Shown here: piece after piece, positions 2,239 through 15,774 of the stretch
How the letters are laid out: each line of letters opens with the position of its first letter
How positions within the stretch are numbered: the first letter of the stretch is position 1
Assembly (NCBI GenBank): GCA_024762925.1
Contig: JANTGM010000051.1
Span: 1-39,583 of the forward strand
DNA: 39,583 bases
Direction of reading: 5' to 3'
Source of the DNA: Kofleriaceae bacterium
GTDB lineage: Bacteria; Myxococcota_A; Polyangia; Haliangiales; Haliangiaceae
Notes under the pieces: generated by a model
Seen by the model: the letters and a program-made list of their open reading frames with translations, nothing else
Database searches by the model: none
What the model was told of the DNA's origin: nothing
Program-made: the position numbers and the translations under genes

Positions 2239-2899
2239 GGCAAGCGGTAGACGAGGTGGCCCACCTGACCTAAAGAGTACCCTGGGTTCGCTCCTGCGAA
2301 CCACCCTTGACCAAGCCTCGGCGGTTCGAGAGGTCGTCGAGCAGCAAACTCGATCCCGCGGTGGCATTCTCGATCAGGCGCTAACCCAACGCAAACGCAC
2401 GGCAGCATTCGCAAGACTGGGCGAGCAGGTCTACCGCATGGCGCGGCGAGGCGAATTGGGCGAACTGCTCCTCGATCCCGAGATAGGCCTGCGAATTGGC
2501 GAATTGGAGCGGCTCGATGATGACAGCTTTGGGGACGACATTCCCCCAGTGAGTTCCGGCCCCGAAGCCGTGAGCAGCGCTGAGTATGCCGCGCGCTTTC
2601 AGACCGATCGTGGCGATGAGCCCGGGGCTGGCGAGTACCGAGTGTGGCGTCCAGTGCTACCGGATGACGAGGCGATTGTCGATGTGGACGAGGAGCCCTC
2701 TGAGCCCTCTGCTCCTGTCGATGAAGACGTCTCAGCCAAGACGAGCGGCCCCGCGCGCCCATCACGGATGCCAAGGCGCTCGGCGATTCGGCAAGGAGGC
2801 GGCATTCGCTTCGCCGACAGAGGGCCAAATCCCGAGGATCCGAACTCGGATGAAGACCTCGCAAGCTATATGCATGACGATGACGTTCCTGAGGAATAG
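2237..2899 (+). CDS. Hypothetical protein, acidic C-terminal half
   Basis: A 220-residue protein I do not recognise. It has no signal peptide or membrane segment. Residues about 10-95 are helical-looking and rich in Arg, Glu and Leu (LKSTLGSLLRTTLDQ, LGEQVYRMARRGELGELLL), possibly a coiled coil. Residues about 95-220 are low-complexity, acidic and Pro/Ser-rich, ending in EDLASYMHDDDVPEE, and are probably disordered. The start ATG lies within CCATGG at 2235-2240 and overlaps the divergent start codon on the other strand by two bases. The last 26 bases overlap the following lysyl oxidase gene, which suggests translational coupling and a shared transcript. Function cannot be inferred. Confidence 0.7.
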   Translation: MASGRRGGPPDLKSTLGSLLRTTLDQASAVREVVEQQTRSRGGILDQALTQRKRTAAFARLGEQVYRMARRGELGELLLDPEIGLRIGELERLDDDSFGDDIPPVSSGPEAVSSAEYAARFQTDRGDEPGAGEYRVWRPVLPDDEAIVDVDEEPSEPSAPVDEDVSAKTSGPARPSRMPRRSAIRQGGGIRFADRGPNPEDPNSDEDLASYMHDDDVPEE

Positions 2900-3971
2900 C
2901 ATCGTCATCACAGCCCTGGCCTATGCTGCGTGCTCCGGTCCCCCCACGACAACCAGCGCGCCTCACGATGCTGCCGTCCAAGACGCTGGGCCCATCGCAG
3001 ATAGCATGCCGATCAAGCCTGATGGCAGCGCCGACTTCAGTATTGATATGGGGCGGTCGCAGATTGACCTGAGCATTGGTACTGAGATGTTTGCTGTTGA
3101 CTCATGCGAACTTGATCCGAGCGAGCAGTGCGTTGGTGCTGCTGGTGAGCGCAGTGTCTTGCGATTTTCCGTCGAGACGATCAATTTGGGAGACGCCGAC
3201 ATCTCGCTTGGCCCACCTGGCGACAACCCCAACTACGAGTTTTCCCAATGTCACGGTCACTTTCATTTCCGTGGCTACGCGAGCTATCGCCTTCTTGGAG
3301 AATCGGGAACAGAAGTCTTGGTTGGCAGGAAGCAGGCATTTTGCTTGGTTGACTCGGAACCCTACACAGATGAGGCAGCCACAGAACGAACCTACAGCTG
3401 CCAAAACCAGGGGCTCTCAGCTGGCTGGGCGGATGTCTATGCGGCAGACCTTCCCTGCCAGTTTCTGGACATCACAGACATCGCAGACGGCGAGTACACG
3501 CTTGAAGTCGCTGTCAATCCAGATGGCTTGCTTGGCGAGCACGACCCCACGAACAATCTGGGCAGCATTGCAATTCGCATCGGCGATCCTCATCTCGAGA
3601 CTCCCACCGAAGCATGCCCAAGCGTTGCGCCTCGCTATCTCGATCGCATTCAGCGGGAATGCGACTGGGACTTTGTAGGCAACTTCGATTGCATCCCAGG
3701 AACGCAGACTGGTGCTGGCTGCTCGCAATCCTGTGGCGTTGGCAGCTGTGAAGGCAACGCCATGATTCGCGTTTGTGACGCGGCCTCGGTCAATTGCACA
3801 AGTGGCAACGCCCTGGGTTCCAACGACAATCGATGCGGCAGTGCCTGTCCTCTAGCAAGCGGCTTTCTATGCCCTGAGTCTGGGCAGTTGGCCGTCTACG
3901 CGGCAGCCTCGGAACATGGACACCCCTACGAGTGCAACGTGGCGATTCGTGCAGGCCCGATTTCGCCATAG
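2874..3971 (+). CDS. Bacterial lysyl oxidase-family copper lipoprotein
   Basis: A 365-residue predicted lipoprotein (signal sequence with AYAAC lipobox, Cys20) carrying a lysyl oxidase domain at about residues 65-235. Known features of animal LOX are preserved: the copper motif C-H-x-H-x-H (CHGHFHF, His127/129/131), the Lys of the lysine-tyrosylquinone cofactor in GRKQAFCLVD (Lys153) and the partner Tyr in DVYAADLPCQFLDIT (Tyr189), 36 residues apart, close to the animal spacing. LOX enzymes oxidatively deaminate primary amines using copper and LTQ, so an active extracytoplasmic amine oxidase is likely. The region from about 235 to the end is a Cys-rich extension with about a dozen cysteines and unknown role. 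The start at 2874 (alternative ATG 2880) lies inside the preceding gene, and the upstream open frame lacks signal-peptide character. Confidence 0.85.
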   Translation: MTMTFLRNSIVITALAYAACSGPPTTTSAPHDAAVQDAGPIADSMPIKPDGSADFSIDMGRSQIDLSIGTEMFAVDSCELDPSEQCVGAAGERSVLRFSVETINLGDADISLGPPGDNPNYEFSQCHGHFHFRGYASYRLLGESGTEVLVGRKQAFCLVDSEPYTDEAATERTYSCQNQGLSAGWADVYAADLPCQFLDITDIADGEYTLEVAVNPDGLLGEHDPTNNLGSIAIRIGDPHLETPTEACPSVAPRYLDRIQRECDWDFVGNFDCIPGTQTGAGCSQSCGVGSCEGNAMIRVCDAASVNCTSGNALGSNDNRCGSACPLASGFLCPESGQLAVYAAASEHGHPYECNVAIRAGPISP

Positions 3972-4003: not shown

Positions 4004-4582
4004 TCACGAGGACGAGGCTAAGAACATTTCCAATCCGAGCGTCCTAGCAACCTCGCCGACCCTCGTGGCATCAACGACATGAACTCCATTTGGGTCAAAC
4101 GAAACATCGGTGATGCCAGGGTGTTCTGCTTCCAGGCTCTCGTAGAGTTGCCTTCGACGGCGGGCCCGAGCGCTTGCCTCGGAGACAATTTCGAGTTCTT
4201 CTTTGCGCTCGAGGGCCTCGCGAACCATGTTGCGCAAGTTGTTTGCGTCGAAGGGCTTTCGCACAAAGCGATGAACTTCGCCCTCGTTAATGGCTCGGAC
4301 CGCTGCATCCATGTTGCCCGCGCCAGTGACAAATACGCGAATCATTGCCGGCTGAAGCTCGTGGGCTTTTGCCATGACCTCGTGCCCATTGAGCACGGGC
4401 ATGTCAATGTCGCAGAGCATGAGGTCGTACTTCTCACGCTCCAACGCTTCGACGGCGAGTTCAGGTTGATCAATGCAGGTTACGTCAAAGGCGCAACGGC
4501 GCAACGTTCGACGCAGGCTTGCTAAGACATCTCGGTTGTCATCGACAATGAGGATCTTTGGTGTCTGGGAAGCCTTGCTCAT
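4004..4582 (-). CDS. Response regulator, receiver domain with short C-terminal region
   Basis: A 192-residue protein with a CheY-like receiver domain at residues about 8-125. The acidic pair Asp14/Asp15, phospho-acceptor Asp58 in LMLCDIDMP, Thr in FVTGAGN and Lys109 in RKPF are all present, so it should be phosphorylatable. After the receiver comes a helical Arg/Glu-rich linker and about 45 residues with no recognised output domain. The start is taken at 4582 because its ATG overlaps the TGA stop of the kinase gene as ATGA, a typical coupled arrangement; an alternative ATG lies at 4603. The coupling implies it works with the Ser/Thr kinase encoded just upstream, although Hanks kinases do not normally phosphorylate receivers on Asp, so the link is inferred. 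Confidence 0.85.
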   Translation of the reverse strand: MSKASQTPKILIVDDNRDVLASLRRTLRRCAFDVTCIDQPELAVEALEREKYDLMLCDIDMPVLNGHEVMAKAHELQPAMIRVFVTGAGNMDAAVRAINEGEVHRFVRKPFDANNLRNMVREALERKEELEIVSEASARARRRRQLYESLEAEHPGITDVSFDPNGVHVVDATRVGEVARTLGLEMFLASSS

Positions 4583-5922
4583 GCTGGCAACCACCTGCGC
4601 CATCCCTTGCGCTGCAGGAGTGCAAGCACTCGGTCAAGCTCCGCAATGACGGCGTCTGTGGTTGGATACCGGTCTTCTGGTTTCTTTGCCAGCAGCCGCT
4701 CGAGAACCAGCCACAGTTCTTCTGGGATCTCTTCGCTCGAAGCTGTGAAGAGTGGTGGGGGGGGCTCAAGAATGTGTTTCATCACGATGTCACGTGCGGT
4801 TTCGCCCTCAAAGGGCACACGTCCACTGACCAATTCGTAGAGTACAACTCCAAACGAATACATATCCGAGCGCGAATCGGTTGGCAGTGCTTGGGCTTGC
4901 TCTGGCGCCATGTAATACGGCGTGCCTACAACCATGCCAGGGGGACCATCGGGAACGTCACTCTGATCAATATCGGGAACGGATGCTGCACCAAAGTCCA
5001 CAACCTTGATTCGCTCTCCTTTGGGTGATTTCTCGACGAATACATTCGAAGGAGAAACGTCTCGATGCACAATGCCAGCAGAGTGAGCGGCTCCCAACGC
5101 GGCCGCTACATCGCGCATGAGAACGAGTGCTCTAGTGGGTTCGATTGCGCCCTGCATGTCCATGATGTCGTCGAGGCTGCGGCCGCCGAGAAGCTCCATG
5201 ACAAGATAGTGACGCCCATCAGAAAAACTCCCAAAGTCGCTAACGTCGACAATGCCATCATGCTGGACCCGAGCGGCTGCGCGCGCTTCTCGAACAAAAC
5301 GCTTAGCGGCATCGGGATCTTCGCGGAGTACGCCTCCCAATAGCACTTTCATAGCAAACTTCTTGCGGAGTAAGGTGTGTTCGACTAGGTAGACCATGCC
5401 CATGCCGCCACGTCCCAAGGTTCGCTCAACACAGTACGGGCCCACGCTGGTTCCCGGCGCGAGAATCTCCGGGTAGTCTTGCCCGCCTGGCTGCTGGGCA
5501 ACGCTGCTGTCGAGGTCTTCTCCGACATCGTCGAGTACTCGCAACTCGCCAGCCAGACCGCTATCCGTGAGTCGAATGGTGACAAGCAGTTCGAGGTCCG
5601 TGTCCCCGACTCGTGCATTGAGCCTGCCGTTTTGCGTTCCTGGCGCCAGCAAATCGAGCCGGGCCAAGAGGGCAAAGCGGGCAAGCACTGCATCGCCAAG
5701 CCCCTCTTCAAACTGGGTCGCAACGATTGCCTTGCGGTTCTTCTCCATGGTCACGGTGTGAGAGCCGAGCTCCAGCTCCTCTCCAGACGGCTCAAACCAG
5801 ACCGTGGTGGCACGTTGCGTTGCCAACGAATACACAATGATATCAACTACGTCGACAGCATTTGGGGACCTTTCCAGGGCCCCCTCAGGCCCGCGGCTCG
5901 ACGCTTCCATTGCACCACTCAC
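4579..5922 (-). CDS. Hanks-type Ser/Thr protein kinase with GspE/PilB-N-like domain
   Basis: A 447-residue soluble kinase with no predicted membrane segment. The catalytic domain spans about 162-430: glycine loop GRGGMGMVYLVEH (170-182), Lys192 in FAMKVL, Glu212, catalytic loop HRDVSPSNV with Asp288 and Asn293, DFG at 309-311 and APE at 339-341. The usual Lys of HRDxKxxN is Ser, a variant frequent in myxobacterial kinases. Residues about 22-132 read like the N-terminal substrate-recognition domain of type II secretion/type IV pilus ATPases: DIIVYSLATQRATTVWFEP aligns with the familiar (S)DIHIEP segment and LLARLDLLAPGTQNGRL with the RLPQDGR segment. No ATPase domain follows. The gene overlaps the downstream response regulator by 4 bp. 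The kinase call is firm; the N-domain relation was judged by eye. Confidence 0.9.
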   Translation of the reverse strand: MSGAMEASSRGPEGALERSPNAVDVVDIIVYSLATQRATTVWFEPSGEELELGSHTVTMEKNRKAIVATQFEEGLGDAVLARFALLARLDLLAPGTQNGRLNARVGDTDLELLVTIRLTDSGLAGELRVLDDVGEDLDSSVAQQPGGQDYPEILAPGTSVGPYCVERTLGRGGMGMVYLVEHTLLRKKFAMKVLLGGVLREDPDAAKRFVREARAAARVQHDGIVDVSDFGSFSDGRHYLVMELLGGRSLDDIMDMQGAIEPTRALVLMRDVAAALGAAHSAGIVHRDVSPSNVFVEKSPKGERIKVVDFGAASVPDIDQSDVPDGPPGMVVGTPYYMAPEQAQALPTDSRSDMYSFGVVLYELVSGRVPFEGETARDIVMKHILEPPPPLFTASSEEIPEELWLVLERLLAKKPEDRYPTTDAVIAELDRVLALLQRKGWRRWLPA

Positions 5923-6010: not shown

Positions 6011-7687
6011 CTAGAAGCGGTAGCCAAGCCTGGCAAAGGCGGTGAGCATGAGAACCGAGGGCTGGGGAAGCTGAGTGCCCGCAGCATCCGCCGTCACGAG
6101 CTTCTGACTTGCGACATTCAACATGCCCATTGCGAACCAGTTGCGCTTTGGCCGATAGAAGATGACGCCCCCTGCGCTAATGCTTGTGGCTTCCGAGGTG
6201 CCAAAGCACTCCAAGAAATTGGCTTGCCCGGGACCGCAATTGAGTTGTTGCCTTTGGTCGTTGGATTTTAGGTAGCTCAGGTTTACTTCGAACTCGCCTT
6301 TGTTGTCAGCCAAGTCGCGGCTCAGTTCCAGACTCCCAAGCGTGGACTTTGAGCGATCGAGATTCTTGGAGTCCTCTCCCATGACGAGCTCATCGCCAAA
6401 GCCTGCACTGCGCGTGACAGAAGCACCAATGCGAAAGTCTTTGTACGATTCGCGATCAACGAGCTGGAGCTGAATGTCCAGCGCTTGTGCCAGTGGCAAA
6501 AGAAGGATCGTCTCGTCGGTTTGCACCAGGGCAATCTCTGGTCGACGACGCAGCGTTCCCGAAGCACTTAGCGCAAATCGATTTTGCTTGAAGCTGGCTG
6601 TGCCGCCAAGTTCGCCGCTTTCCTGAGCAACCCTAGATACGTACCAGTTGTTTTGCACCAGGGCGGAAGCCATTGGGTCGAGAGGGTCCAAGCGTTGTTG
6701 TGCGTGCACATTCAGCGTCTCGGTGTCGACTCGATTGATTCTCGCAAAGAGGCGCGTCGCTGTGGTTGGTCGGTGGCTTGCGCCGATGGAAAGATTGGAA
6801 ACAGCAGCGTCCTGATTGCCGGCTACATCAAAGACGATGAAGTGATAAATATCGGTCTTGTCGGATTGCTGCCAATAGCCGTTGCTCGTGAGAAAGATTC
6901 GATTGCGCTCCGCCAGCCCAGTAGCGATTTCATCACCGCGAGGCAAGATGCCGGCTACACCAATCGAACCGTAGATTCGCTCCCTTCGATAGCTACCGCT
7001 GGCACCGGCGACCACAGGCAACAGCCGCTTCGGAGCGGTGGGGTCCATGACCTTATTCTGCACGTTGTAATCTGTGCGAAGGTCGCGCGACCCGCGTCTT
7101 GGGTAGAGGCCCGCGAAGCCCATGTACTTCCAGGTCTTGCCCTTGTGTTGCTCGACTTGGACACCGTCAAAACGCACGGAAGCCACTTGGGGCACCACCT
7201 GTCGCCCCACCTTCACGTCGTAGTCGCGCATGCGATAGCGAAGATGAGCCTCTCGTAGGTGCAGCTCGTCCCCGCCAAAGGTGCCAGACTGAGCAGCTTC
7301 GCACGTGCCGATCGGCAGCGCATCACTGCGAATCCGGCCCTTGCAGCGCTCGATTTGCTTGCGCCCTCGGAAGTCGAGTTTGAAATCGAACTTGCCACCG
7401 CTGATGTGCTTCGCGGCGAGTTGCAAACGCAAGTCGGTGAACACTCGATCGGTGGGGCTAGCACTCTCAATCGGTATGGCCGCACCATCGTTGCTACCAG
7501 ATTCGCTGAAGAAGAAACTCGATGACGTGAGGCTTCCCGACAAGCCAGTCTTTTTCTTATCGGCTTTGCTCTCCCGATCTGCCTCGTAGAATGGTGGCTT
7601 AGAGCTGTCGTCTTGCGCTTCTGCGATCGATGGGCAGACGAGCAGGCCTAGGGCGCAAACGGCCAGTGTGCCCCGCATTAGCGACAT
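6011..7687 (-). CDS. Outer-membrane beta-barrel protein of redox cluster
   Basis: A 558-residue exported protein: signal peptide MSLMRGTLAVCALGLLVC ending SIAEA, a charged spacer, then many alternating amphipathic segments and a C-terminal aromatic residue (ARLGYRF), the classic mark of an outer-membrane barrel. Central motifs include LHLREAHLRYRMRDYDVKVG and RQVVPQVASVRFDGVQVEQ, as in porin-like barrels. The start at 7687 is preferred because GGGAG lies 5 bases upstream; the ATG at 7678 (TAATG overlap) would be too far from it. The 10-bp overlap with the 30-heme cytochrome gene argues that the barrel and the cytochrome act together, as in porin-cytochrome conduits of metal-reducing bacteria. 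It shows no obvious similarity to MtrB by eye, so the conduit role is inferred from context. Confidence 0.75.
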   Translation of the reverse strand: MSLMRGTLAVCALGLLVCPSIAEAQDDSSKPPFYEADRESKADKKKTGLSGSLTSSSFFFSESGSNDGAAIPIESASPTDRVFTDLRLQLAAKHISGGKFDFKLDFRGRKQIERCKGRIRSDALPIGTCEAAQSGTFGGDELHLREAHLRYRMRDYDVKVGRQVVPQVASVRFDGVQVEQHKGKTWKYMGFAGLYPRRGSRDLRTDYNVQNKVMDPTAPKRLLPVVAGASGSYRRERIYGSIGVAGILPRGDEIATGLAERNRIFLTSNGYWQQSDKTDIYHFIVFDVAGNQDAAVSNLSIGASHRPTTATRLFARINRVDTETLNVHAQQRLDPLDPMASALVQNNWYVSRVAQESGELGGTASFKQNRFALSASGTLRRRPEIALVQTDETILLLPLAQALDIQLQLVDRESYKDFRIGASVTRSAGFGDELVMGEDSKNLDRSKSTLGSLELSRDLADNKGEFEVNLSYLKSNDQRQQLNCGPGQANFLECFGTSEATSISAGGVIFYRPKRNWFAMGMLNVASQKLVTADAAGTQLPQPSVLMLTAFARLGYRF

Positions 7688-10098
7688 ATCGACTCCCGAT
7701 TGGTTCCCACTGCATTCGGCGCCCAAGAGTTGGGATTGTGGCACTGAGAGCAACTTGAGTACGCTTGGTGGGCAGCATCTTTCCCTGCAGCCTCGGCCTT
7801 GTGACACCCGTAGCAGGTCGCCGAGAGGCCGCCGTAGTTGCCCTCTTGGTGGCAGTCGGCGCATGGCAAGGTGCGATGCAGTCCGGTGAGATTGCAACCA
7901 ACCTTGGAGTGATTGAAACGAGCTGGAGCAAACGACCACTGGTTGTGGCAAGTGCCGCACCGAGGTGAGAGCGAGTTTCCGTGGATATCGTCTTGTCGGT
8001 GGCAGTTGATGCACAAGTTGCCAGAGCCCGCAAGCCGTTGGTTGTTCACGTGGCAGCGATCGCAACTCTGCTGATCGTGCGCCCCTTTCAGATTGAAATC
8101 GCCAACATCATGCAGCGCGATGATGTCCGAGAAACTCTGAGTGGTGTGACAGGTCGCGCAGTTTGTTCCAAACTGGCCTTTGTGCACACGGGGTTCGGGG
8201 TGACACGCGCCACCTCCAAAGCAGTCCTTTGGCCTAGGCTTGAACGTGACGCTTGGATGACAGTCCGCACAGCGAACTGTTAGGTGTTTGCCGGTGAGCT
8301 TGTAGTCACTTTGCGAGTTGTGATCGAAGATGTTCTCGCCGGTCTCGAGGTGACAGTTCTCGCACTTAGTGCCCAGGCGTTTCTTGTGCACATCGTCCTT
8401 TGCGTGACAGCCAACGGCAGAGCAGTTGGTCGGCGTCTTCGCAAACTTGCGATTGGGGTGACACTGCACGCATTCCGGAACTCGGTTGTGCAGGCCGAGT
8501 AGTGGCCAGTCGGTGTCGTCGGTATGGTCAAAGCGTACGGCCTGCCAGATGCCCGGTTGGTGGCATTTATCGCACTCATCGCCGAGTCTGCCGAGGTGAA
8601 GCGAGTCGTCATGGCAGCGCACGCCACACTGCTTTGGCGTGCCATCGTATTCGTCGTTTACGTGGCACTTGACACAATCCACTTTGAGGTGGCCCTTGTC
8701 CAGCGGCCATGTTCCGCGAAAGCCATGGATGCCTTTGACGCCCTCCGCTCCCACGCGCTTGGAACCCTCGGTCTTGTGGCATTCCAAACAGGTCTGTACC
8801 CGCTTGCCATCTCGCATGACCTTCACGCTCTTCGGCTTGTCGGTGAAGTCGTTGTTGTGAACGTTCTTGTGTTCATGACAGCCCATGCACAGCTTGCCAT
8901 TGTTCGTCGACTTACTAACGTCTAAGAACTTATCTGGGCGCTTGCCAAGGTGGCACTTGCGGCAAGTTGCACTGGCGTGTTTTCCTCGAAGCGCAAACTT
9001 GGTGCGCTTGTCGTGCTTGAAGCGGTTGGGCTTCCAAGAAGATTCAGGGTGGCAGTACTGGCAAGCGGGTGGGCGCCCAAACTCCTTGAATCGTTCTTTG
9101 TGGGGGTTGTCGCTGGCATGGCAGGTGGCACATGCACGATCGGGCGCTTTCGAACCAAGCTTCTTGGTGTGGCATTTGTAGCAATTGACTTTGCTATGGG
9201 CCCCGCTCAGATCGAACTTGGTTCGAGCCTTGTGGTCGAACTTGTACTTCTTAAGAGAGCGGTCTTTGGGTGAGTGACACCAATCACAACTCTTGCGATC
9301 AAAGAGCATGTCTTTGTGGGGCGAGGCGTGACATCCCGAGTTGCCACAGTTACCCGGCTTTGCGCGCTTGAGGTTAAAGCGGGCCTTGGGGTGACACTTT
9401 GCGCAGGCCACATCAATGTGGGCGCCCTCTTGGGGAAACTCCGCGTGGCTCTTCTTGTTGTGGTCGAAGTCGAGTCGCGACTTAGGAGGCTTCCAGGAAA
9501 CCTCCGTATGGCAGCGCTCGCACTGCATAAGCGTCTTGCGATCAAAGCCGTGGGGCTGATCGCGCTTGTGGCAGCTTCCACAGAGCTTGTCTTCGCCAAG
9601 GTAGAGGCGACGACCTGCCTTGTTCTTCTTCTTGTGGCAATCCTTGCACTCAAGGACCTTGTGTTTGTCGCGAAGAGGCCAGCCTGCCAGTTTGTGATCG
9701 AAGCCCTTTTCCTGGCCCTTGACCGTTCGCCAACCCATCATGTCGAAGCTTCGGCCCTTGTGATCGAGGTGGCAGTCCTCGCAGTTCTTCCCCCTCACTT
9801 TGGAGGAGGCGTGGTAGCCCTTGCCGGATCGAATTCGCTTTTTCAGATCGTTGTGGTCGTGACAGTCGAGGCACTTGTTGCTGTCGATGCTCTTGCTGTC
9901 GTTGACGTGGCAATCGTTGCAGCTATCTTGGTTATCGAGAGCAGCGTGCTCTTTGGCCAGCGCGCCGGGGCTGGAAGAAAAGAAGTTACTCTGGGCCTGT
10001 GCCGAACGCTCTCCGACAAAGCACAGAAGCAAGGCAAGCAACCAAGCTTGGGCAACCGCGAAACGAGCAACGGTAAATCGAGTGCCAAAACGAGTCAT
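7678..10098 (-). CDS. 30-heme c-type cytochrome of ten triheme modules
   Basis: An 806-residue secreted protein with a Sec signal (basic N-region, hydrophobic core, RSAQA cleavage site). I count 30 heme-attachment motifs: 26 canonical CXXCH and four expanded ones, CX4CH (CGNSGCH, CSAVGCH), CX3CH (CGVRCH) and CX5CH (CFGGGACH). The motifs fall into ten tandem units of about 65-85 residues with three hemes each; the third heme is followed by F-x-H and by L-x-G-x-H segments that can supply distal histidines. It should be a fully bis-His, periplasmic or cell-surface electron carrier. The ATG at 10098 is chosen over an upstream TTG at 10110; it lies 15 bases after the stop of the FeS/cytochrome b gene, so the three genes form one operon. 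Whether it stays periplasmic or is exported is not visible. Confidence 0.93.
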   Translation of the reverse strand: MTRFGTRFTVARFAVAQAWLLALLLCFVGERSAQAQSNFFSSSPGALAKEHAALDNQDSCNDCHVNDSKSIDSNKCLDCHDHNDLKKRIRSGKGYHASSKVRGKNCEDCHLDHKGRSFDMMGWRTVKGQEKGFDHKLAGWPLRDKHKVLECKDCHKKKNKAGRRLYLGEDKLCGSCHKRDQPHGFDRKTLMQCERCHTEVSWKPPKSRLDFDHNKKSHAEFPQEGAHIDVACAKCHPKARFNLKRAKPGNCGNSGCHASPHKDMLFDRKSCDWCHSPKDRSLKKYKFDHKARTKFDLSGAHSKVNCYKCHTKKLGSKAPDRACATCHASDNPHKERFKEFGRPPACQYCHPESSWKPNRFKHDKRTKFALRGKHASATCRKCHLGKRPDKFLDVSKSTNNGKLCMGCHEHKNVHNNDFTDKPKSVKVMRDGKRVQTCLECHKTEGSKRVGAEGVKGIHGFRGTWPLDKGHLKVDCVKCHVNDEYDGTPKQCGVRCHDDSLHLGRLGDECDKCHQPGIWQAVRFDHTDDTDWPLLGLHNRVPECVQCHPNRKFAKTPTNCSAVGCHAKDDVHKKRLGTKCENCHLETGENIFDHNSQSDYKLTGKHLTVRCADCHPSVTFKPRPKDCFGGGACHPEPRVHKGQFGTNCATCHTTQSFSDIIALHDVGDFNLKGAHDQQSCDRCHVNNQRLAGSGNLCINCHRQDDIHGNSLSPRCGTCHNQWSFAPARFNHSKVGCNLTGLHRTLPCADCHQEGNYGGLSATCYGCHKAEAAGKDAAHQAYSSCSQCHNPNSWAPNAVGTNRESICR

Positions 10099-10113
10099 AA
10101 CAACAAGCAAATT

Positions 10114-12285
10114 TTACAACGACTTTGCAAAGGCCAGGTAAATATGAACCGCAGAGATTGCCGCCATAATGACGCTGAAGGGCACATGCACCTTTTTCCA
10201 CGAGTGCAATAGCAGCTGGGCGCGCGACGCAAGCACTTTGCGGCGATTAATAAGCATCATTCGCCCTGTGCGCCGTGCAAGCTCAGAGCAGGCCTCTTTA
10301 GAGATGCCACCGCCTGAGAACACCCGTTTGCGGTGCATCCACCGCCCTGGTCGTCGGAGGTCTTCGAGAATCACCCAAACAAATGAGCGAAGCATTCCCG
10401 CATTGGCAGCAATGTGCTCGGCAAGCTCTCTGTGCGGATTCAAGATGGCATCGCTCTCGGCGACCGCGTGGGGAAACTGTGCTCGCAGGCTTCGCATTGC
10501 GCGCTGGTGATCGAGTTCTTCGAGTTCGCGTCCATTGAGAAGATCGGGAACCTGCGTGTAGAGATAGCGGCCAATCACACCAGAGATGAAGACGATGATC
10601 ATGCTCCAAAAGGCCGCAGAGACCCAGTTGTCGAGCTTAAAGCCAGTGTGCAAGACAATGAAGGCAGGCCCCATCGTTCCCGACATCAAGTGAAAGTCGA
10701 ACCACATGGTATTGCTGGCGATCTTGCGGAAACTCTTCATGCGCCGAAGCGGCACGTAGAGGATGGCCAAGAGCATGAGCCCGGTTCCGACATAGCCACA
10801 ATTGACCGCGAGGTCTGTGCCTGCGCGGAAGCCCACCTTCATCTCGGCGATGACTGGTTCAAGACCTTCTGCGCGCAGCAGCACGTATTGAAGCGAGCTT
10901 GTTGGCCTGTACATGCGAAGCATGATTTCGGCCATGGCAAGGAAGAAGGCTGTGAGGGATATGCCCCACATGAGCACAGGAGCAAGCCGGTTGCGCTTGG
11001 TCTTTGCCATGCCTGCATCGCGCACCCCAATCCCCTCGGTAAAGGGCTCGATGGGAAGAATCTCGCGATGATCGAAATTCGAATCCATGTCCTGAACCAT
11101 CCCAGCAGCGGCCTGAGCCGCAGGCGAGCGCTCTTGGAATAATTCGTAGGCACTCACCTCGATGAGCGAGCCTGTAGGACACGCCGAGACGCAAGCTTGC
11201 GTGGAGTAGCTGTAGCAGTGATCGCACTTGTTCGCGATGCGACGAGCCCGTGCCACCCTGCCCTTGCCGGGACCAAAATTCAGTGAGCCATCCTCGTCGA
11301 GGCGGAGTTTGAAATCCTCACGATAGGTTGGGTTGCTCGAATCCGAGACGTCGACCATCTCAATCGATTCAAATGGGCAACTCTGTGCACAAAGCGTGCA
11401 GCCTACGCATGTCGATTCGTTGATGACGACTTCGCGAATCTCGGGATCAAATCGAATGGAGTCGTAATCACAAGGTGTGATGCAACGCTGATCGGTGCAG
11501 GTTCGGCACGAGAAGACGAAGTCAAGCATGCCCAGCTGATAGCCACCAAGGGTGAGCCGGCGTGCCCCGTAACGCTCTTCGCAGGCCTGCTCACACTGCT
11601 TGCAGTCGATGCAGGTATCGAGCTGCCGGACCCGAACCATTTCACCAGAGACGCTAATGCCATGGCGAATGAAGAAATCCAGAATCTCCTGCTTGACGCC
11701 CAGGATGTTGTGTAGGCGTTCACGCCCCACCTCAATGGCAAGCCGCAAGCGATCTTCAAAGAACGGAAACTGCACTGCCAACTCTGCAGACATTTCATGA
11801 GACATGGAAATGACCACGGTCGGCTCGACGGCGAAAAAGGCAACATCCCCCTGAGTCCCTTGAGCGAGAGAGGCAGAGTTGAAGAGGTCACCACGCATGA
11901 AGGTTGCGAGGTTCTTGCGGGCAACGCGAGAGAGTGGCGGCGGCTGCAAGGCAGAGAGGTCATTGCGCTCCTTCTCCGTCATCTGCTCAAACTCGATTTG
12001 CGCCTGCTTGCGCTCGGCAATCTTGTTCGGATCGAACACAGCGACCGCGACCTGTCCCGAGGCAACCATCATGATTCGCGGACCGATTTGCGGCGTGGCA
12101 ACGTCCTGGGGGTCGGCGACAAAGACATCGCGATCAAAGACTTGCCGAGTCACGCCCCCAAGAACCACCGCCCGCCAAAGGGACTCGTTCGGAATTCCGT
12201 CGAAGACGGGCATCTGCCGCAGATCACGATAGGCCTGCTGTGTCTCTGGCGAGTTCTCGCCTGGATTGCCCTGGGGTTGATTCAT
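10114..12285 (-). CDS. Fusion of CNB-like, 4x[4Fe-4S] ferredoxin and di-heme b membrane domains
   Basis: A 723-residue inner-membrane protein. Residues about 20-200 resemble a cyclic-nucleotide-binding fold (PVFDGIPNESLWRAVV, MMVASGQVAVAVF). Next come four ferredoxin-type cysteine sets: 225/228/231/235, 260/263/268/272, 293/296/299/303 and 354/357/365/369, the pattern of DmsB/HybA-like electron-transfer subunits. The C-terminus has about five membrane helices (435-456, 490-513, 530-548, 554-575, 690-720). His532/His546 and His700/His714 are each 14 residues apart, as expected for two stacked b hemes held between two helices in ferric-reductase/NOX-like domains. Electrons could pass from a cytoplasmic donor via the FeS chain and b hemes to the 30-heme cytochrome encoded next, or in reverse. 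The start is uncertain (12285 chosen; in-frame 12345 and 12366 upstream). Confidence 0.85.
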   Translation of the reverse strand: MNQPQGNPGENSPETQQAYRDLRQMPVFDGIPNESLWRAVVLGGVTRQVFDRDVFVADPQDVATPQIGPRIMMVASGQVAVAVFDPNKIAERKQAQIEFEQMTEKERNDLSALQPPPLSRVARKNLATFMRGDLFNSASLAQGTQGDVAFFAVEPTVVISMSHEMSAELAVQFPFFEDRLRLAIEVGRERLHNILGVKQEILDFFIRHGISVSGEMVRVRQLDTCIDCKQCEQACEERYGARRLTLGGYQLGMLDFVFSCRTCTDQRCITPCDYDSIRFDPEIREVVINESTCVGCTLCAQSCPFESIEMVDVSDSSNPTYREDFKLRLDEDGSLNFGPGKGRVARARRIANKCDHCYSYSTQACVSACPTGSLIEVSAYELFQERSPAAQAAAGMVQDMDSNFDHREILPIEPFTEGIGVRDAGMAKTKRNRLAPVLMWGISLTAFFLAMAEIMLRMYRPTSSLQYVLLRAEGLEPVIAEMKVGFRAGTDLAVNCGYVGTGLMLLAILYVPLRRMKSFRKIASNTMWFDFHLMSGTMGPAFIVLHTGFKLDNWVSAAFWSMIIVFISGVIGRYLYTQVPDLLNGRELEELDHQRAMRSLRAQFPHAVAESDAILNPHRELAEHIAANAGMLRSFVWVILEDLRRPGRWMHRKRVFSGGGISKEACSELARRTGRMMLINRRKVLASRAQLLLHSWKKVHVPFSVIMAAISAVHIYLAFAKSL

Positions 12286-12333
12286 CAAGTTTTGAGACCG
12301 CTGAGAGTATCTGCTGACGGCTTGCGCCTGGCT

Positions 12334-12350
12334 GCACCAACGCATGGTGC
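12334..12350. promoter_or_regulatory. Inverted repeat in divergent intergenic region
   Basis: A perfect 6-bp inverted repeat, GCACCA-ACGCA-TGGTGC, lies between the divergent redox operon (start 12285) and the plus-strand gene starting at 12464. Its position would suit an operator or regulator site. No convincing -35/-10 pair could be placed on either strand, so function is a guess. Confidence 0.25.
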
Positions 12351-12463
12351 GGTATGCTGCGAGCACGTCGTACGCTCGGCGACAGTTTCGGCCGAATTAC
12401 TCTTGCTTTCAAGATGTTAAGCCGGTTTCTAGGCGCAATCAACGAATCCGTTCTGAGACCATC

Positions 12464-12988
12464 GTGAAGCGAATTTGGCCCCACCTCCTCTTGCCCACCC
12501 TTGTTCCGCTGTTGGGATTTGGAAATATGGCAAATGCCAAAGAAACAAACTCTTTCGTGGCGCCACCCCAAAGTGAGGTTCATTTGGCGATTGGCCCTGT
12601 GATGGCCGGAATTGCGCGCAGTGAAGGCTGGGATACCCAGGTAGGTGGCGAATTGCATCTCGTTCGTCTCAACCCCTCAGATCGACTTGCTGCGATCGGC
12701 GAGGCATTTGGAGCACTCACGTTTGCTAGCGATGAGACAATTCGCCTCTACCTCGACTCATACGTTGGGCTCAAAGTCACCGCAGATCTCACGGTTGGGG
12801 TGGCATTGGCTCCCGTGATCGATCTCCATCCAAATCGGCGATCGATCTTTGGGGCACAAGCAACAGCCTGGTTGCACGCGGGCATTGCCCCCTATGTCTC
12901 GGCCTCGCGCATGTGGGGCTTGGGTGCTTCCAACAAGGCCGAGTTCTCGATTGGCCTGCGTATCCCCTTCTCAGTTGCCAACTTCTAG
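12464..12988 (+). CDS. Small exported barrel-like hypothetical protein
   Basis: A 174-residue protein beginning at a GTG codon that places a good signal peptide at the N-terminus (VKRIWPHLLLPTLVPLLGFG, cleavage after ANA). The open frame extends about 40 codons further upstream but that part is Arg-rich and not signal-like. The mature part alternates polar and hydrophobic residues (SEVHLAIGPVMAGIA, YLDSYVGLKVTADLTVGVAL, AEFSIGLRIPFSVANF) and ends in Phe, as small outer-membrane beta-barrels do. It is divergent from the redox operon and precedes the receiver-XRE regulator by 124 bases. A link to the redox cluster is possible but not demonstrated. I do not recognise the family. Confidence 0.65.
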   Translation: MKRIWPHLLLPTLVPLLGFGNMANAKETNSFVAPPQSEVHLAIGPVMAGIARSEGWDTQVGGELHLVRLNPSDRLAAIGEAFGALTFASDETIRLYLDSYVGLKVTADLTVGVALAPVIDLHPNRRSIFGAQATAWLHAGIAPYVSASRMWGLGASNKAEFSIGLRIPFSVANF

Positions 12989-13036
12989 TGCCCAAGAGCC
13001 GGCATGTTGCAAAAAATAGCACCGAGTCATCGCCAG

Positions 13037-13054
13037 CTGCACCCCCTTGTGCAG
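13037..13054. promoter_or_regulatory. Inverted repeat upstream of the receiver-XRE gene
   Basis: A perfect 6-bp inverted repeat, CTGCAC-CCCCTT-GTGCAG, sits about 60 bases before the start of the regulator gene. XRE-type regulators often bind such dyads near their own promoter, so autoregulation is a reasonable but untested guess. There is no T-run after it, so it is unlikely to be a terminator for the preceding gene. Confidence 0.3.
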
Positions 13055-13112
13055 AGTGCTAGTATTTGCCTTTCGCATTTGCCGGTGAGAGGCGGACCAT
13101 GAAGGGGGAGCA

Positions 13113-13709
13113 ATGCCACAACTAAGTATTCTCGTCGTCGACGATGACCAAGAAGTTCGTGAATTCCTTAAGGACTTTCTTGAGGGAGAAGGGTATGCCG
13201 TCTCGCTTTTGAGCGACCCAACGGAAGCTGTCACATCGTTGAAAGCGAACCAGTATCACCTTGTCATCCTTGATCTCATGATGCCCAAGCTCTCTGGGAT
13301 CGATCTCTTGGCGCAGATCCGACAGATAGACGATGACGTCGCAATCATCATTCTCACGGGGCATCCAAGTCTCGAGACCGCGACCACTTCGATTGAGTTG
13401 GAGGTTTCCGCCTACATTCGCAAGCCATTCGCGCCTCAGGAGTTCCGCGAAGCAATTGAGCGGATTGCAAAGAAGAAAGGGCTGCATCTCTCACGAGAGG
13501 AAGAGCTGCACTCCACGATTGGTCGCACGATTCGCGAACTGCGAAAAGAGCGTAGCCTCACGCTCAAACAAATGTCGCGCCGCACGGATCTCAGTGTATC
13601 GCTACTCTCGCAGATCGAGCGAGCTGAATCGTCTGCGTCGGTTTCATCGCTGTTCAAGGTATCGACCGCCCTAGATGTGAGCATCACAGAACTATTCGGA
13701 AGCTACTAG
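13113..13709 (+). CDS. Response regulator with C-terminal XRE-family HTH output
   Basis: A 198-residue DNA-binding response regulator. The receiver domain (about 3-122) has the acidic pair Asp10/Asp11, phospho-acceptor Asp54 in VILDLMMP, Thr in IILTGHPS and Lys in YIRKPF. Residues about 136-198 form an XRE/Cro-CI helix-turn-helix (IGRTIRELRKERSLTLKQMS, RTDLSVSLLSQIERAESSAS), ending with the typical LDVSITELF segment. Receiver-XRE fusions are uncommon compared with OmpR, NarL or NtrC outputs. A strong ribosome site, GGGGGAG, lies just before the ATG. No partner histidine kinase is next to it, so it is an orphan. Its TAG stop overlaps the stop of rpe on the other strand within a CTAG palindrome, so the two genes converge with no spacer. 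Confidence 0.9.
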   Translation: MPQLSILVVDDDQEVREFLKDFLEGEGYAVSLLSDPTEAVTSLKANQYHLVILDLMMPKLSGIDLLAQIRQIDDDVAIIILTGHPSLETATTSIELEVSAYIRKPFAPQEFREAIERIAKKKGLHLSREEELHSTIGRTIRELRKERSLTLKQMSRRTDLSVSLLSQIERAESSASVSSLFKVSTALDVSITELFGSY

Positions 13710-14383
13710 GGACGCGCAGCCTGTTCGGCTCGTTCACGCATGGTTGCAATGGTCTTGGACCAGTCATCGCTCTTGAAGATTCCACTGCCAGAGACAATGA
13801 CGTTGGCGCCTGCGCTCGCAACACGATGAACGTTGTCGACTTTGATACCGCCATCCACCTCGATATCTAGCTCCAAGCCCCTCGATACTGCTCGCTCTCG
13901 CAGTCGCTCGATCTTTGGCAGGCACAACTCGATGAAGCTCTGGCCGCCGAACCCTGGATTCACGGTCATGATGAGCACCATGTCCAAGTCTTCAAGGACA
14001 CAGTCCACTGCATCAATGCTAGTGGCAGGGTTGAGTGCCACGGAAGCACGTGCACCCTGCGTTTTTATCTTCTGGATTGTGCCGTGGAGGTGAGTCACAG
14101 CTTCGGCATGCACGCTCACGATGTCGGCGCCCGCCACAATGTAGTCCTCTAGGTAAAGTTCTGCATTGCGAATCATGAGATGCACATCGAGGGGAATCCT
14201 GCTCGCGGCCTTGGCGGCTTTCACAATCATCGGCCCGATGGTGAGATTGGGAACAAAGTGTCCATCCATCACATCGACATGCAAGAGGTCCGCGCCAGCA
14301 TTGGACATGGCTTCAATGTCCGCGGCCAGTCGGCCAAAGTCGGCAGATAGAATCGAAGGAGCAATCTGAATCGAAGACGTCAC
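13706..14383 (-). CDS. rpe: Ribulose-phosphate 3-epimerase
   Basis: A 225-residue TIM-barrel enzyme interconverting ribulose 5-phosphate and xylulose 5-phosphate in the pentose phosphate pathway. The family signature runs through the protein: IAPSILSADF at the start, LHVDVMDGHFVPN with metal/catalytic Asp and His, LDVHLMI, MTVNPGFGGQSF and the second catalytic Asp in DIEVDGGI, then NVIVSGSGIF for phosphate binding. The GTG at 14383 gives the usual family length; an upstream extension to 14479 has no family similarity. It is the last gene of the priA-fmt-rsmB-rpe cluster, 38 bases after rsmB. It converges with the receiver-XRE gene and shares stop-codon bases with it. Confidence 0.95.
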   Translation of the reverse strand: MTSSIQIAPSILSADFGRLAADIEAMSNAGADLLHVDVMDGHFVPNLTIGPMIVKAAKAASRIPLDVHLMIRNAELYLEDYIVAGADIVSVHAEAVTHLHGTIQKIKTQGARASVALNPATSIDAVDCVLEDLDMVLIMTVNPGFGGQSFIELCLPKIERLRERAVSRGLELDIEVDGGIKVDNVHRVASAGANVIVSGSGIFKSDDWSKTIATMRERAEQAARP

Positions 14384-14421
14384 GGAGCCGACGCTAGCAT
14401 GGCCACATGGCTCCGAGGTTC

Positions 14422-15774
14422 CTAGCGTCGGCGCATTCGAGCAGCGTAAAAGGCGTCCTGAGAGCTCTTGTGGGGCCATGAGGAGAAGGTCCCATCCTCG
14501 GATAGAAGCGAAGACCAGTCAGGATCGCTTTCGGACTTGGACGTTGGTGGCGCCATCTCAAACTCGGGGTGGCGAGCGAGAAAGTCGGCAATCTGCTCTG
14601 GACCTTCGGCACTCGTAAAGGTGCAAACGCTGTAGAGCAAGATGCCTCCGGGTTTTAGGCAGCGAGCCACAGCGTCGAGGAGACGCGATTGCAGCGCCAC
14701 GATCTCAACAATCTGTGGGCGCTTGTCGGGCCCCCACTTGGCTTCAGGATGTCGCCGCAACACACCCAATCCGCTGCATGGAGCGTCGAGCATGACCAAA
14801 TCGTAATCCGGGGCGAGCTTGGCATCTTCGCGCGTGGCGTCGGCAACCAGTGGCGAAACGCCTTCGAGCCCGAGGCGCTTCACCGAGTCGTGCAACAGGC
14901 CAATCTTTCTCTTGCTCAAGTCCACAGCATCGATATGTAGCGAGAGGGGCAACTCGGCGAGGTGCGTGGTCTTGCCGCCAACGCCTGCACAAGCGTCGAG
15001 AACGCGCCAACCTTGCTCAGCTTCTGCCATAGCACCAATGAGCTGCGCTGCCTGATCTTGTACAGTCCAAAGGCCTTCAGAAAAACTCTGAGAGTGCTCT
15101 GGAGAACCGAGACCGGCAACGTCGATTGCCCAGGGGTATACGCTAGACAAGGAACAGCGGGCGCCCTCGCCTTGCTCAAGACGTTCGATCAAATCCTCTA
15201 CCGTGGTGCGCCGGCGGTTCACGCGCAAGCTCAGCGGCGCAACCTCCTGCATGCCGGCAGCAACGTCTGGGAACTGGTCCTCGCCAACCCGATCGAGCAG
15301 CAAATCCGCGAGCCACTCGGGAAGGGAGTTTCGCTCCATGACACTCGCCTTGTCTGAGCCTTGGGAAAGCTCCGGTTCGCCTTCTCGGCCAAGCTTGCGC
15401 AACAGTCCGTTGGCGAAACCTCCAAGCTTCGGCCCTCCGACTCGCCGCACCTCGGTAACGGCATCATCCACAGCGGCGTGGTCTGGAATTCGCTCGAGGA
15501 AGAGCAGCTGATAGGCGGCAACACGCAATGCCAGCAGCGCGGCAGGTGGCAGCTTGCTGAGCCCTTTGTGAGCGTATGAAGCGAGCGCCCGATCGAGCCG
15601 ACTCCGATGTCGGAGAACTCCATAGGTAATTTCCGTAGCCAGGCGACGGTCCTTTTCCCCCAGACGGGAGCGCTGCATCTCCGCGGAGAGTGCGAGCGTT
15701 GCGTACGACCCGGCCTCAACGCGGGCAAGTACTCTCCGTGCAACCACTCGCGCCGAAGGTCCTTGCGCGCTCAT
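14422..15774 (-). CDS. rsmB: 16S rRNA m5C967 methyltransferase RsmB
   Basis: A 450-residue RNA cytosine-5 methyltransferase (Sun/Fmu family). Residues about 5-130 form the NusB-like RNA-binding domain (ARVVARRVLARVEAGSYA, EITYGVLRHRSRLDRAL). The Rossmann SAM-binding domain follows, with VLDACAGVGGKTTHLA, the catalytic-loop Cys in MLDAPCSGLGVLRRHPE and the nucleophile region LLYSVCTFTSAEG. It methylates 16S rRNA at the position equivalent to C967. Its ATG overlaps the fmt stop as ATGA, showing translational coupling with fmt, an arrangement common in bacteria. Length and motifs are ordinary. Confidence 0.95.
   Translation of the reverse strand: MSAQGPSARVVARRVLARVEAGSYATLALSAEMQRSRLGEKDRRLATEITYGVLRHRSRLDRALASYAHKGLSKLPPAALLALRVAAYQLLFLERIPDHAAVDDAVTEVRRVGGPKLGGFANGLLRKLGREGEPELSQGSDKASVMERNSLPEWLADLLLDRVGEDQFPDVAAGMQEVAPLSLRVNRRRTTVEDLIERLEQGEGARCSLSSVYPWAIDVAGLGSPEHSQSFSEGLWTVQDQAAQLIGAMAEAEQGWRVLDACAGVGGKTTHLAELPLSLHIDAVDLSKRKIGLLHDSVKRLGLEGVSPLVADATREDAKLAPDYDLVMLDAPCSGLGVLRRHPEAKWGPDKRPQIVEIVALQSRLLDAVARCLKPGGILLYSVCTFTSAEGPEQIADFLARHPEFEMAPPTSKSESDPDWSSLLSEDGTFSSWPHKSSQDAFYAARMRRR

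Follow-up and report, generated by a model that had tools for sequence, protein, structure and literature searches.

A 30-heme cytochrome of ten triheme modules as the probable periplasmic wire of a PCC3-like conduit in Kofleriaceae

Introduction

The porin-cytochrome conduits named PCC3 combine a porin with a periplasmic multiheme cytochrome of very large size and an inner-membrane protein of five helices, which carries the motif WX3HX13H on its third and fifth transmembrane helices (TM3 and TM5) and SGXXG on TM4 (He et al. 2017, PMC5566968). They are found in Sideroxydans, Leptothrix and Gallionellaceae, with a median of 26 residues per heme (PMC5566968). Their periplasmic subunits bear 21, 24 or 27 hemes, and a subunit of 21-27 hemes was suggested to span the periplasm (PMC10734462). 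Heme number scales with length, about 27 hemes crossing a periplasm of about 200 Å (PMC7096707). The present analysis deals with a contig of 39,583 nucleotides from a Kofleriaceae bacterium (JANTGM010000051.1, assembly GCA_024762925.1; hereafter the window), which carries the gene of a 30-heme c-type cytochrome between those of a putative inner-membrane electron-entry protein and of a predicted outer-membrane beta-barrel.

This cytochrome is probably the periplasmic heme wire of a PCC3-like porin-cytochrome conduit that crosses the envelope of Kofleriaceae-type Myxococcota. A literature search found no report of this conduit in Kofleriaceae or Myxococcota, which is not proof of its absence.

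A cytochrome built on a three-heme period

The cytochrome gene (Table 1) more likely starts at the in-frame ATG at position 10098 than at the end of the open frame (10110). No lipobox was found in the N-terminal region, which has the features of a Sec-type signal peptide, and the mature protein has 770 residues for 30 hemes, i.e., 25.7 residues per heme. Its 30 heme motifs comprise 26 CX2CH and, as the initial annotation had counted, four expanded ones: CX4CH at heme 8, CX3CH at heme 17, CX4CH at heme 20 and CX5CH at heme 23.

That annotation had also read the protein as ten tandem triheme modules, with F-x-H and L-x-G-x-H behind nearly every third heme, and had named self-alignment as the check. 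The period of three hemes emerges both from the spacing of the motifs and from the sequence between them. Spacing depends on register (16-25, 18-33 and 31-45 residues), and its autocorrelation reaches 0.79 at lag 3 while being negative at lags 1 and 2. Once the motifs are removed, the linkers self-align at lags 3, 6, 9 and 12 (z = 6.1, 4.6, 4.0 and 3.7), with no signal at other lags; the lag-3 score was reached by none of 300 shuffles and those at lags 6, 9 and 12 were likewise unreached. Segments score about 70 when their registers match and about 40 when they do not. The modules have 67-91 residues (mean about 75) and share 25-47% identity with each other, and F-x-H and L-x-G-x-H come after most of the third hemes.

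The best Pfam matches are Cytochrome_C7, class III cytochrome and the MtrC/MtrF II/IV domain. A sequence-profile search of the PDB gave distant matches alone, to HmcA, GSU1996, MtrF and chain A of 6r2q.

Matches are found in 28 of the 29 other genomes of the family, and the closest named relatives, from Kofleriaceae assemblies, show 73-77% identity. A paralog of the same genome, located on contig C43, has 30 motifs and 50% identity. Of the full-length relatives, nearly all carry exactly 30 motifs and a few carry 29, while more distant relatives and clusters carry 30, 27, 21, 18 or 15 hemes; two-gene versions from Bacteroidota/Ignavibacteria have 20 motifs in the first gene. A proteobacterial relative with 27 hemes, whose inner-membrane protein is a separate one of 299 residues, aligns to the cytochrome at 31-34%. 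In relatives down to 43-45% identity, each module best matches the module of the same number (10 of 10 on the diagonal), and this colinearity reaches across family, order and class. Growth by duplication of a unit of about 75 residues, as first proposed, is thus supported, but the duplication is ancient and the number of modules is now nearly fixed. A recent duplication is ruled out by the low identity between modules and by their colinearity across relatives. The same holds for a frameshift or assembly artefact, since an open frame with 30 motifs recurs in dozens of genomes.

Several other features of the cytochrome deserve mention. It is split into two frames near heme 15-17 in some loci (L035/L083 and L007/L065), which could be true two-gene versions or assembly errors. 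Module 5 (hemes 13-15) is the least conserved, has the lowest model confidence and contains the motifs most often missing in relatives; it might serve as a hinge that joins the two halves of the protein. Two cysteines outside the heme motifs are conserved, at residues 739 and 809 (mature 699 and 769). The former lies within VGCNLTG in 33 of 44 relatives and the latter in a C-terminal tail, -ESVCR or -ESICR, in 39 of them, possibly forming a disulfide or a docking tail.

Expanded motifs and axial ligands

In this protein, the four expanded motifs all lie at the second heme of a module, an arrangement that has a chance of 0.023 when this protein is considered singly. Among 44 aligned relatives, which are also the basis of the counts given below and in Table 1, expanded motifs occur at hemes 5, 8, 11, 17, 20 and 23, all second hemes of a module, as well as at hemes 15 and 30, which are third hemes; none occurs at a first heme. 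On a FastTree tree of these relatives, motif length changed at least 20 times, with 15 changes at second hemes, 5 at third hemes and 0 at first hemes (p about 5e-4 in a binomial test corrected for three registers). As judged from these alignments, the register rule is real and is a strong tendency, not an absolute one. The original claim that all expanded motifs share one register therefore stands for this protein and fails for the family, in which hemes 15 and 30 are expanded in some members. The tolerance of loop length that had been proposed for the second heme has statistical support, hemes 15 and 30 being tolerant too in relatives. This bias provides a concrete rule as to which heme of a triheme repeat tolerates a loop insertion.

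The expanded motifs could also be seen as degenerate sites that bind no heme, leaving a chain of 26 hemes with four gaps. CX3CH and CX5CH are indeed rare, and the literature search found no paper naming CX5CH as a heme motif. However, both cysteines, the motif histidine and the neighbouring histidine are invariant or nearly so at the expanded sites, and many relatives carry a plain CX2CH there, so that these sites are unlikely to have lost their heme. Class III cytochromes use CX4CH as a standard motif. Furthermore, studies of PCC3 include CX3CH and CX4CH in their heme counts (PMC10734462). Altogether, a chain with gaps appears highly improbable.

The histidines outside the motifs lead to a similar picture. 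Conservation reaches 80% or more for 31 of them. A single one precedes heme 1, every second heme is followed by one and every third heme of modules 1 to 9 by two, and module 1 has two further ones. On this alignment a conserved histidine is available to each heme as a candidate second ligand, and these residues would suffice for a bis-histidine coordination of all 30 hemes. Within each module the ligands follow the order H H C C H C, and no His-Met heme is expected.

Partner genes and the second cluster

The gene preceding the cytochrome ends 15 bases upstream of its ATG. It encodes the exact inner-membrane signature of PCC3 and PCC4, WX3HX13H twice with SGXXG in between. This signature is found once per locus, in the gene adjoining the cytochrome, in most relatives. 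The four histidines of the membrane domain are invariant among 15 homologs, and the domain probably holds two b-type hemes. TM3 falls below the hydropathy threshold in this copy and is seen in the paralog and in two distant loci (L010 and L012). As a match to a family binding cyclic nucleoside monophosphate (cNMP) was obtained for the N-terminal part of only 3 of 15 homologs (best 7.5e-5), the assignment of this domain is weak.

The gene following the cytochrome encodes the barrel. Its structural model (predicted local distance difference test, pLDDT, 77) has about 22 strands, and its best alignment (Z 16.8) is with the barrels of receptors that have 22 strands. It also aligns to MtrB (6r2q_B) with Z 14.7, a score equalled or exceeded with other large barrels. 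A relative of the barrel gene follows the cytochrome gene in more than 30 distinct loci, and the complete order, from the inner-membrane/Fe-S gene to the cytochrome and then the barrel, is found in 11 loci. On gene order, the three-gene operon is conserved across family and order. In three distant members of the class the cytochrome-barrel pair is kept and the inner-membrane gene is not adjacent.

The paralog on C43 belongs to a larger cluster. One strand encodes the Fe-S/inner-membrane protein and a membrane-anchored oxidoreductase of the 4Fe-4S and pyridine-nucleotide (NAD(P)H/FAD) type, the other an SH3-domain protein, the 30-heme cytochrome and the barrel, with a long multiheme lipoprotein beyond. 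This type of arrangement recurs in five loci from other members of the family, some of them cut by contig ends. The lipoprotein-like protein adjoining the paralog cluster (L003, positions 11860-15297, minus strand) has 1145 residues and 33 heme motifs, nine of which are not CX2CH but mostly CX4CH, and matches the Pfam family GSu_C4xC__C2xCH. It is a candidate for the extracellular terminal cytochrome. The C43 cluster holds all the parts of a PCC3, including this candidate, together with a plausible entry for NAD(P)H. In five distant clusters, the cytochrome is split over two or three genes and the inner-membrane protein is paired with a membrane-anchored 4Fe-4S/FAD oxidoreductase. The genome also contains cytochrome c assembly genes.

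A probable electron wire across the envelope

The initial annotation had suggested that the heme chain could act as a molecular wire. The position of its gene between those of a putative inner-membrane donor with b-type hemes and Fe-S clusters and of an outer-membrane barrel makes an envelope-crossing electron wire the most likely function, whereas the linear shape stays a conjecture. In the proposed mechanism, the two b-type hemes would be reduced either from the cytoplasm, by NAD(P)H or ferredoxin by way of the Fe-S domain, or from the quinone pool, and would hand their electrons to the chain of 30 hemes at one of its ends. The modules would line up one after another across the periplasm, 30 hemes at about 7.3 Å giving about 220 Å for a periplasm of about 200 Å, and the chain would end in or at the barrel, where electrons would leave to, or arrive from, a partner outside the cell. 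In each module, the second heme would occupy the site at which the motif loop can vary in length without loss of heme. By the published scaling, 30 colinear hemes, in a number that is nearly fixed, would be long enough to span the periplasm alone.

The same protein could instead be a periplasmic reservoir of electrons, i.e., a capacitor, with the barrel as an ordinary co-transcribed porin. Triheme-repeat cytochromes of the GSU1996 type have been proposed to be capacitors (PMC10138318), and the three COX1 (heme-copper oxidase) genes of the genome would allow the cell to respire oxygen without a conduit. However, a pure store needs neither a barrel, whose gene starts here inside the end of the cytochrome gene and follows it in so many loci, nor the multiheme lipoprotein added in the paralog cluster. 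Such a reservoir is thus quite unlikely.

Several points weigh against the conduit. There is no gene for an extracellular cytochrome beside the operon of the window. The model of the cytochrome, made without hemes, is of only moderate confidence (pLDDT 71, predicted template modelling score 0.33), too low to establish a linear shape. A fold search of the PDB with this model gave no match; for a model of 770 residues without hemes, this null result says nothing on the fold. The contact between barrel and cytochrome is one that we infer from gene order only, the direction of the electrons is ambiguous, and PCC3 itself is still without a functional test (PMC12442390).

As regards direction, the same conduit might work inwards, importing electrons from another cell or by oxidation of a donor outside the cell, for instance Fe(II); an inward flow of this kind was suggested for the PCC3 of iron oxidisers. 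The PCC3 clusters described so far come largely from Fe(II) oxidisers (PMC5566968, PMC10734462), and heme wires can run in both directions. On the other hand, no RuBisCO was found in this genome, which is 98% complete. This makes an iron autotrophy based on the Calvin cycle unlikely and mildly favours export. The FAD/pyridine-nucleotide-type oxidoreductases of the paralog cluster and of several distant clusters suit export at least as well. Import is therefore possible while being the less probable direction, and export is weakly favoured.

A bolder version of the conduit reading may be put forward tentatively, and we hold it to be doubtful as a whole. The single 30-heme chain might lead straight from the b-type cytochrome of the inner membrane into the lumen of the barrel without any diffusing shuttle, and a cNMP-type sensor domain, as part of the fused Fe-S/b-type protein, might gate the entry of electrons. 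The three genes would then form a complete, signal-controlled wire that is a core trait of the family. An operon of three genes makes it possible to test whether a single cytochrome can bridge both membranes.

Coordinates and neighbouring genes

Two genes conserved next to the operon are included in Table 1. Directly downstream of the operon, positions 4004-5922 (minus strand) encode a Ser/Thr kinase and a response regulator, also present in a near relative (L007). At 2586-3971 (plus strand) lies the gene of a protein of secreted type that contains a lysyl-oxidase domain (PF01186, 5.6e-31). A scan for promoters and terminators did no better than shuffles.

Table 1. Position of the operon, its domains and motifs, and two flanking genes in the window
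Feature	Position	Strand	Remarks
Outer-membrane beta-barrel (predicted), 558 residues, about 22 predicted strands	6011..7687	-	First 10 nucleotides shared with the end of the cytochrome gene
30-heme c-type cytochrome	7678..10110	-	Open frame of 810 residues; ten modules of three hemes each; N-terminal Sec-type signal peptide (within the first ~40 residues)
Expanded CX5CH, heme 23, CFGGGACH	8200..8223	-	Elsewhere in the closest relatives only
Expanded CX4CH, heme 20, CSAVGCH	8404..8424	-	Expanded in 33/44 relatives
Expanded CX3CH, heme 17, CGVRCH	8611..8628	-	Expanded (X3, X4 or X5) in 29/44 relatives
Expanded CX4CH, heme 8, CGNSGCH	9328..9348	-	Expanded in 15/44 relatives
Inner-membrane electron-entry protein (putative), 750 residues	10114..12366 (start codon tentative)	-	cNMP-binding-like N-terminal part, 4Fe-4S region and membrane domain
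Membrane domain with PCC3/PCC4 inner-membrane signature	10129..10986	-	WFDFH-X13-H (residue 555), SGVIG (595), WKKVH-X13-H (723)
4Fe-4S ferredoxin region, HycB/formate-hydrogenlyase-subunit-like	11167..11619	-	16 invariant Cys, room for four clusters
Small secreted/outer-membrane-type protein, divergent	12344..12988	+	Conserved next to the operon
Response regulator with HTH_3 domain	13113..13709	+	Conserved next to the operon; candidate regulator

Comparison with known systems

The pairing of a heme chain with an outer-membrane barrel is shared with MtrCAB (PDB 6r2q), to whose MtrB the barrel aligns as said above. However, MtrA has 10 hemes and relies in Shewanella on a separate quinol dehydrogenase and periplasmic shuttles, whereas the locus of the window has 30 hemes in one chain. 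The MtrA/DmsE decaheme family (TIGR03508) matches the cytochrome weakly, with 28.2 bits for a cut-off of 192, and the protein has 30, not ten hemes.

Triheme repeats in one periplasmic chain are also known from Geobacter, in GSU1996 (12 hemes in four three-heme domains) and GSU2210 (27 hemes). The ligand order of GSU1996, H H C M/H C C, differs from the one found here, so that the module does not belong among the c7-type nanowire units. The NCBIfam model nanowire_3heme (TIGR04257) gives 16.8 bits for the cytochrome, below its cut-off of 40. The ligand order and this score together rule out membership of the c7-type nanowires.

PCC4 resembles the operon by its Fe-S protein, next to and once annotated as fused with the inner-membrane protein, by its porin and by the lack of an extracellular cytochrome (PMC5566968). 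Nevertheless, it has three small periplasmic cytochromes (4, 5 and 10 hemes) where a single one with 30 hemes is found here, which sets the operon apart from PCC4.

The closest likeness is to PCC3. Both have a barrel gene beside the cytochrome gene, the inner-membrane signature with two WX3HX13H and one SGXXG, a heme number in multiples of three and nearly the same density (25.7 residues per heme here vs 26). They differ by the number of hemes (21, 24 or 27 in Gallionellaceae vs 30 here), by the fusion of the inner-membrane protein to a 4Fe-4S region and a cNMP-like domain, by the extracellular cytochrome gene, absent beside this operon and with a candidate in the paralog cluster, by the porins, which reach 42 strands in PCC3 vs about 22 here, and by the host, here a member of Myxococcota. 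Because the operon has no extracellular cytochrome and was set beside the named PCC3 subunits by features, not by homology, it is classed as a PCC3-like variant and not as a strict member. PCC3-like conduits, described from iron-oxidising and other Proteobacteria, would in this way extend to Myxococcota and be almost universal in one of its families.

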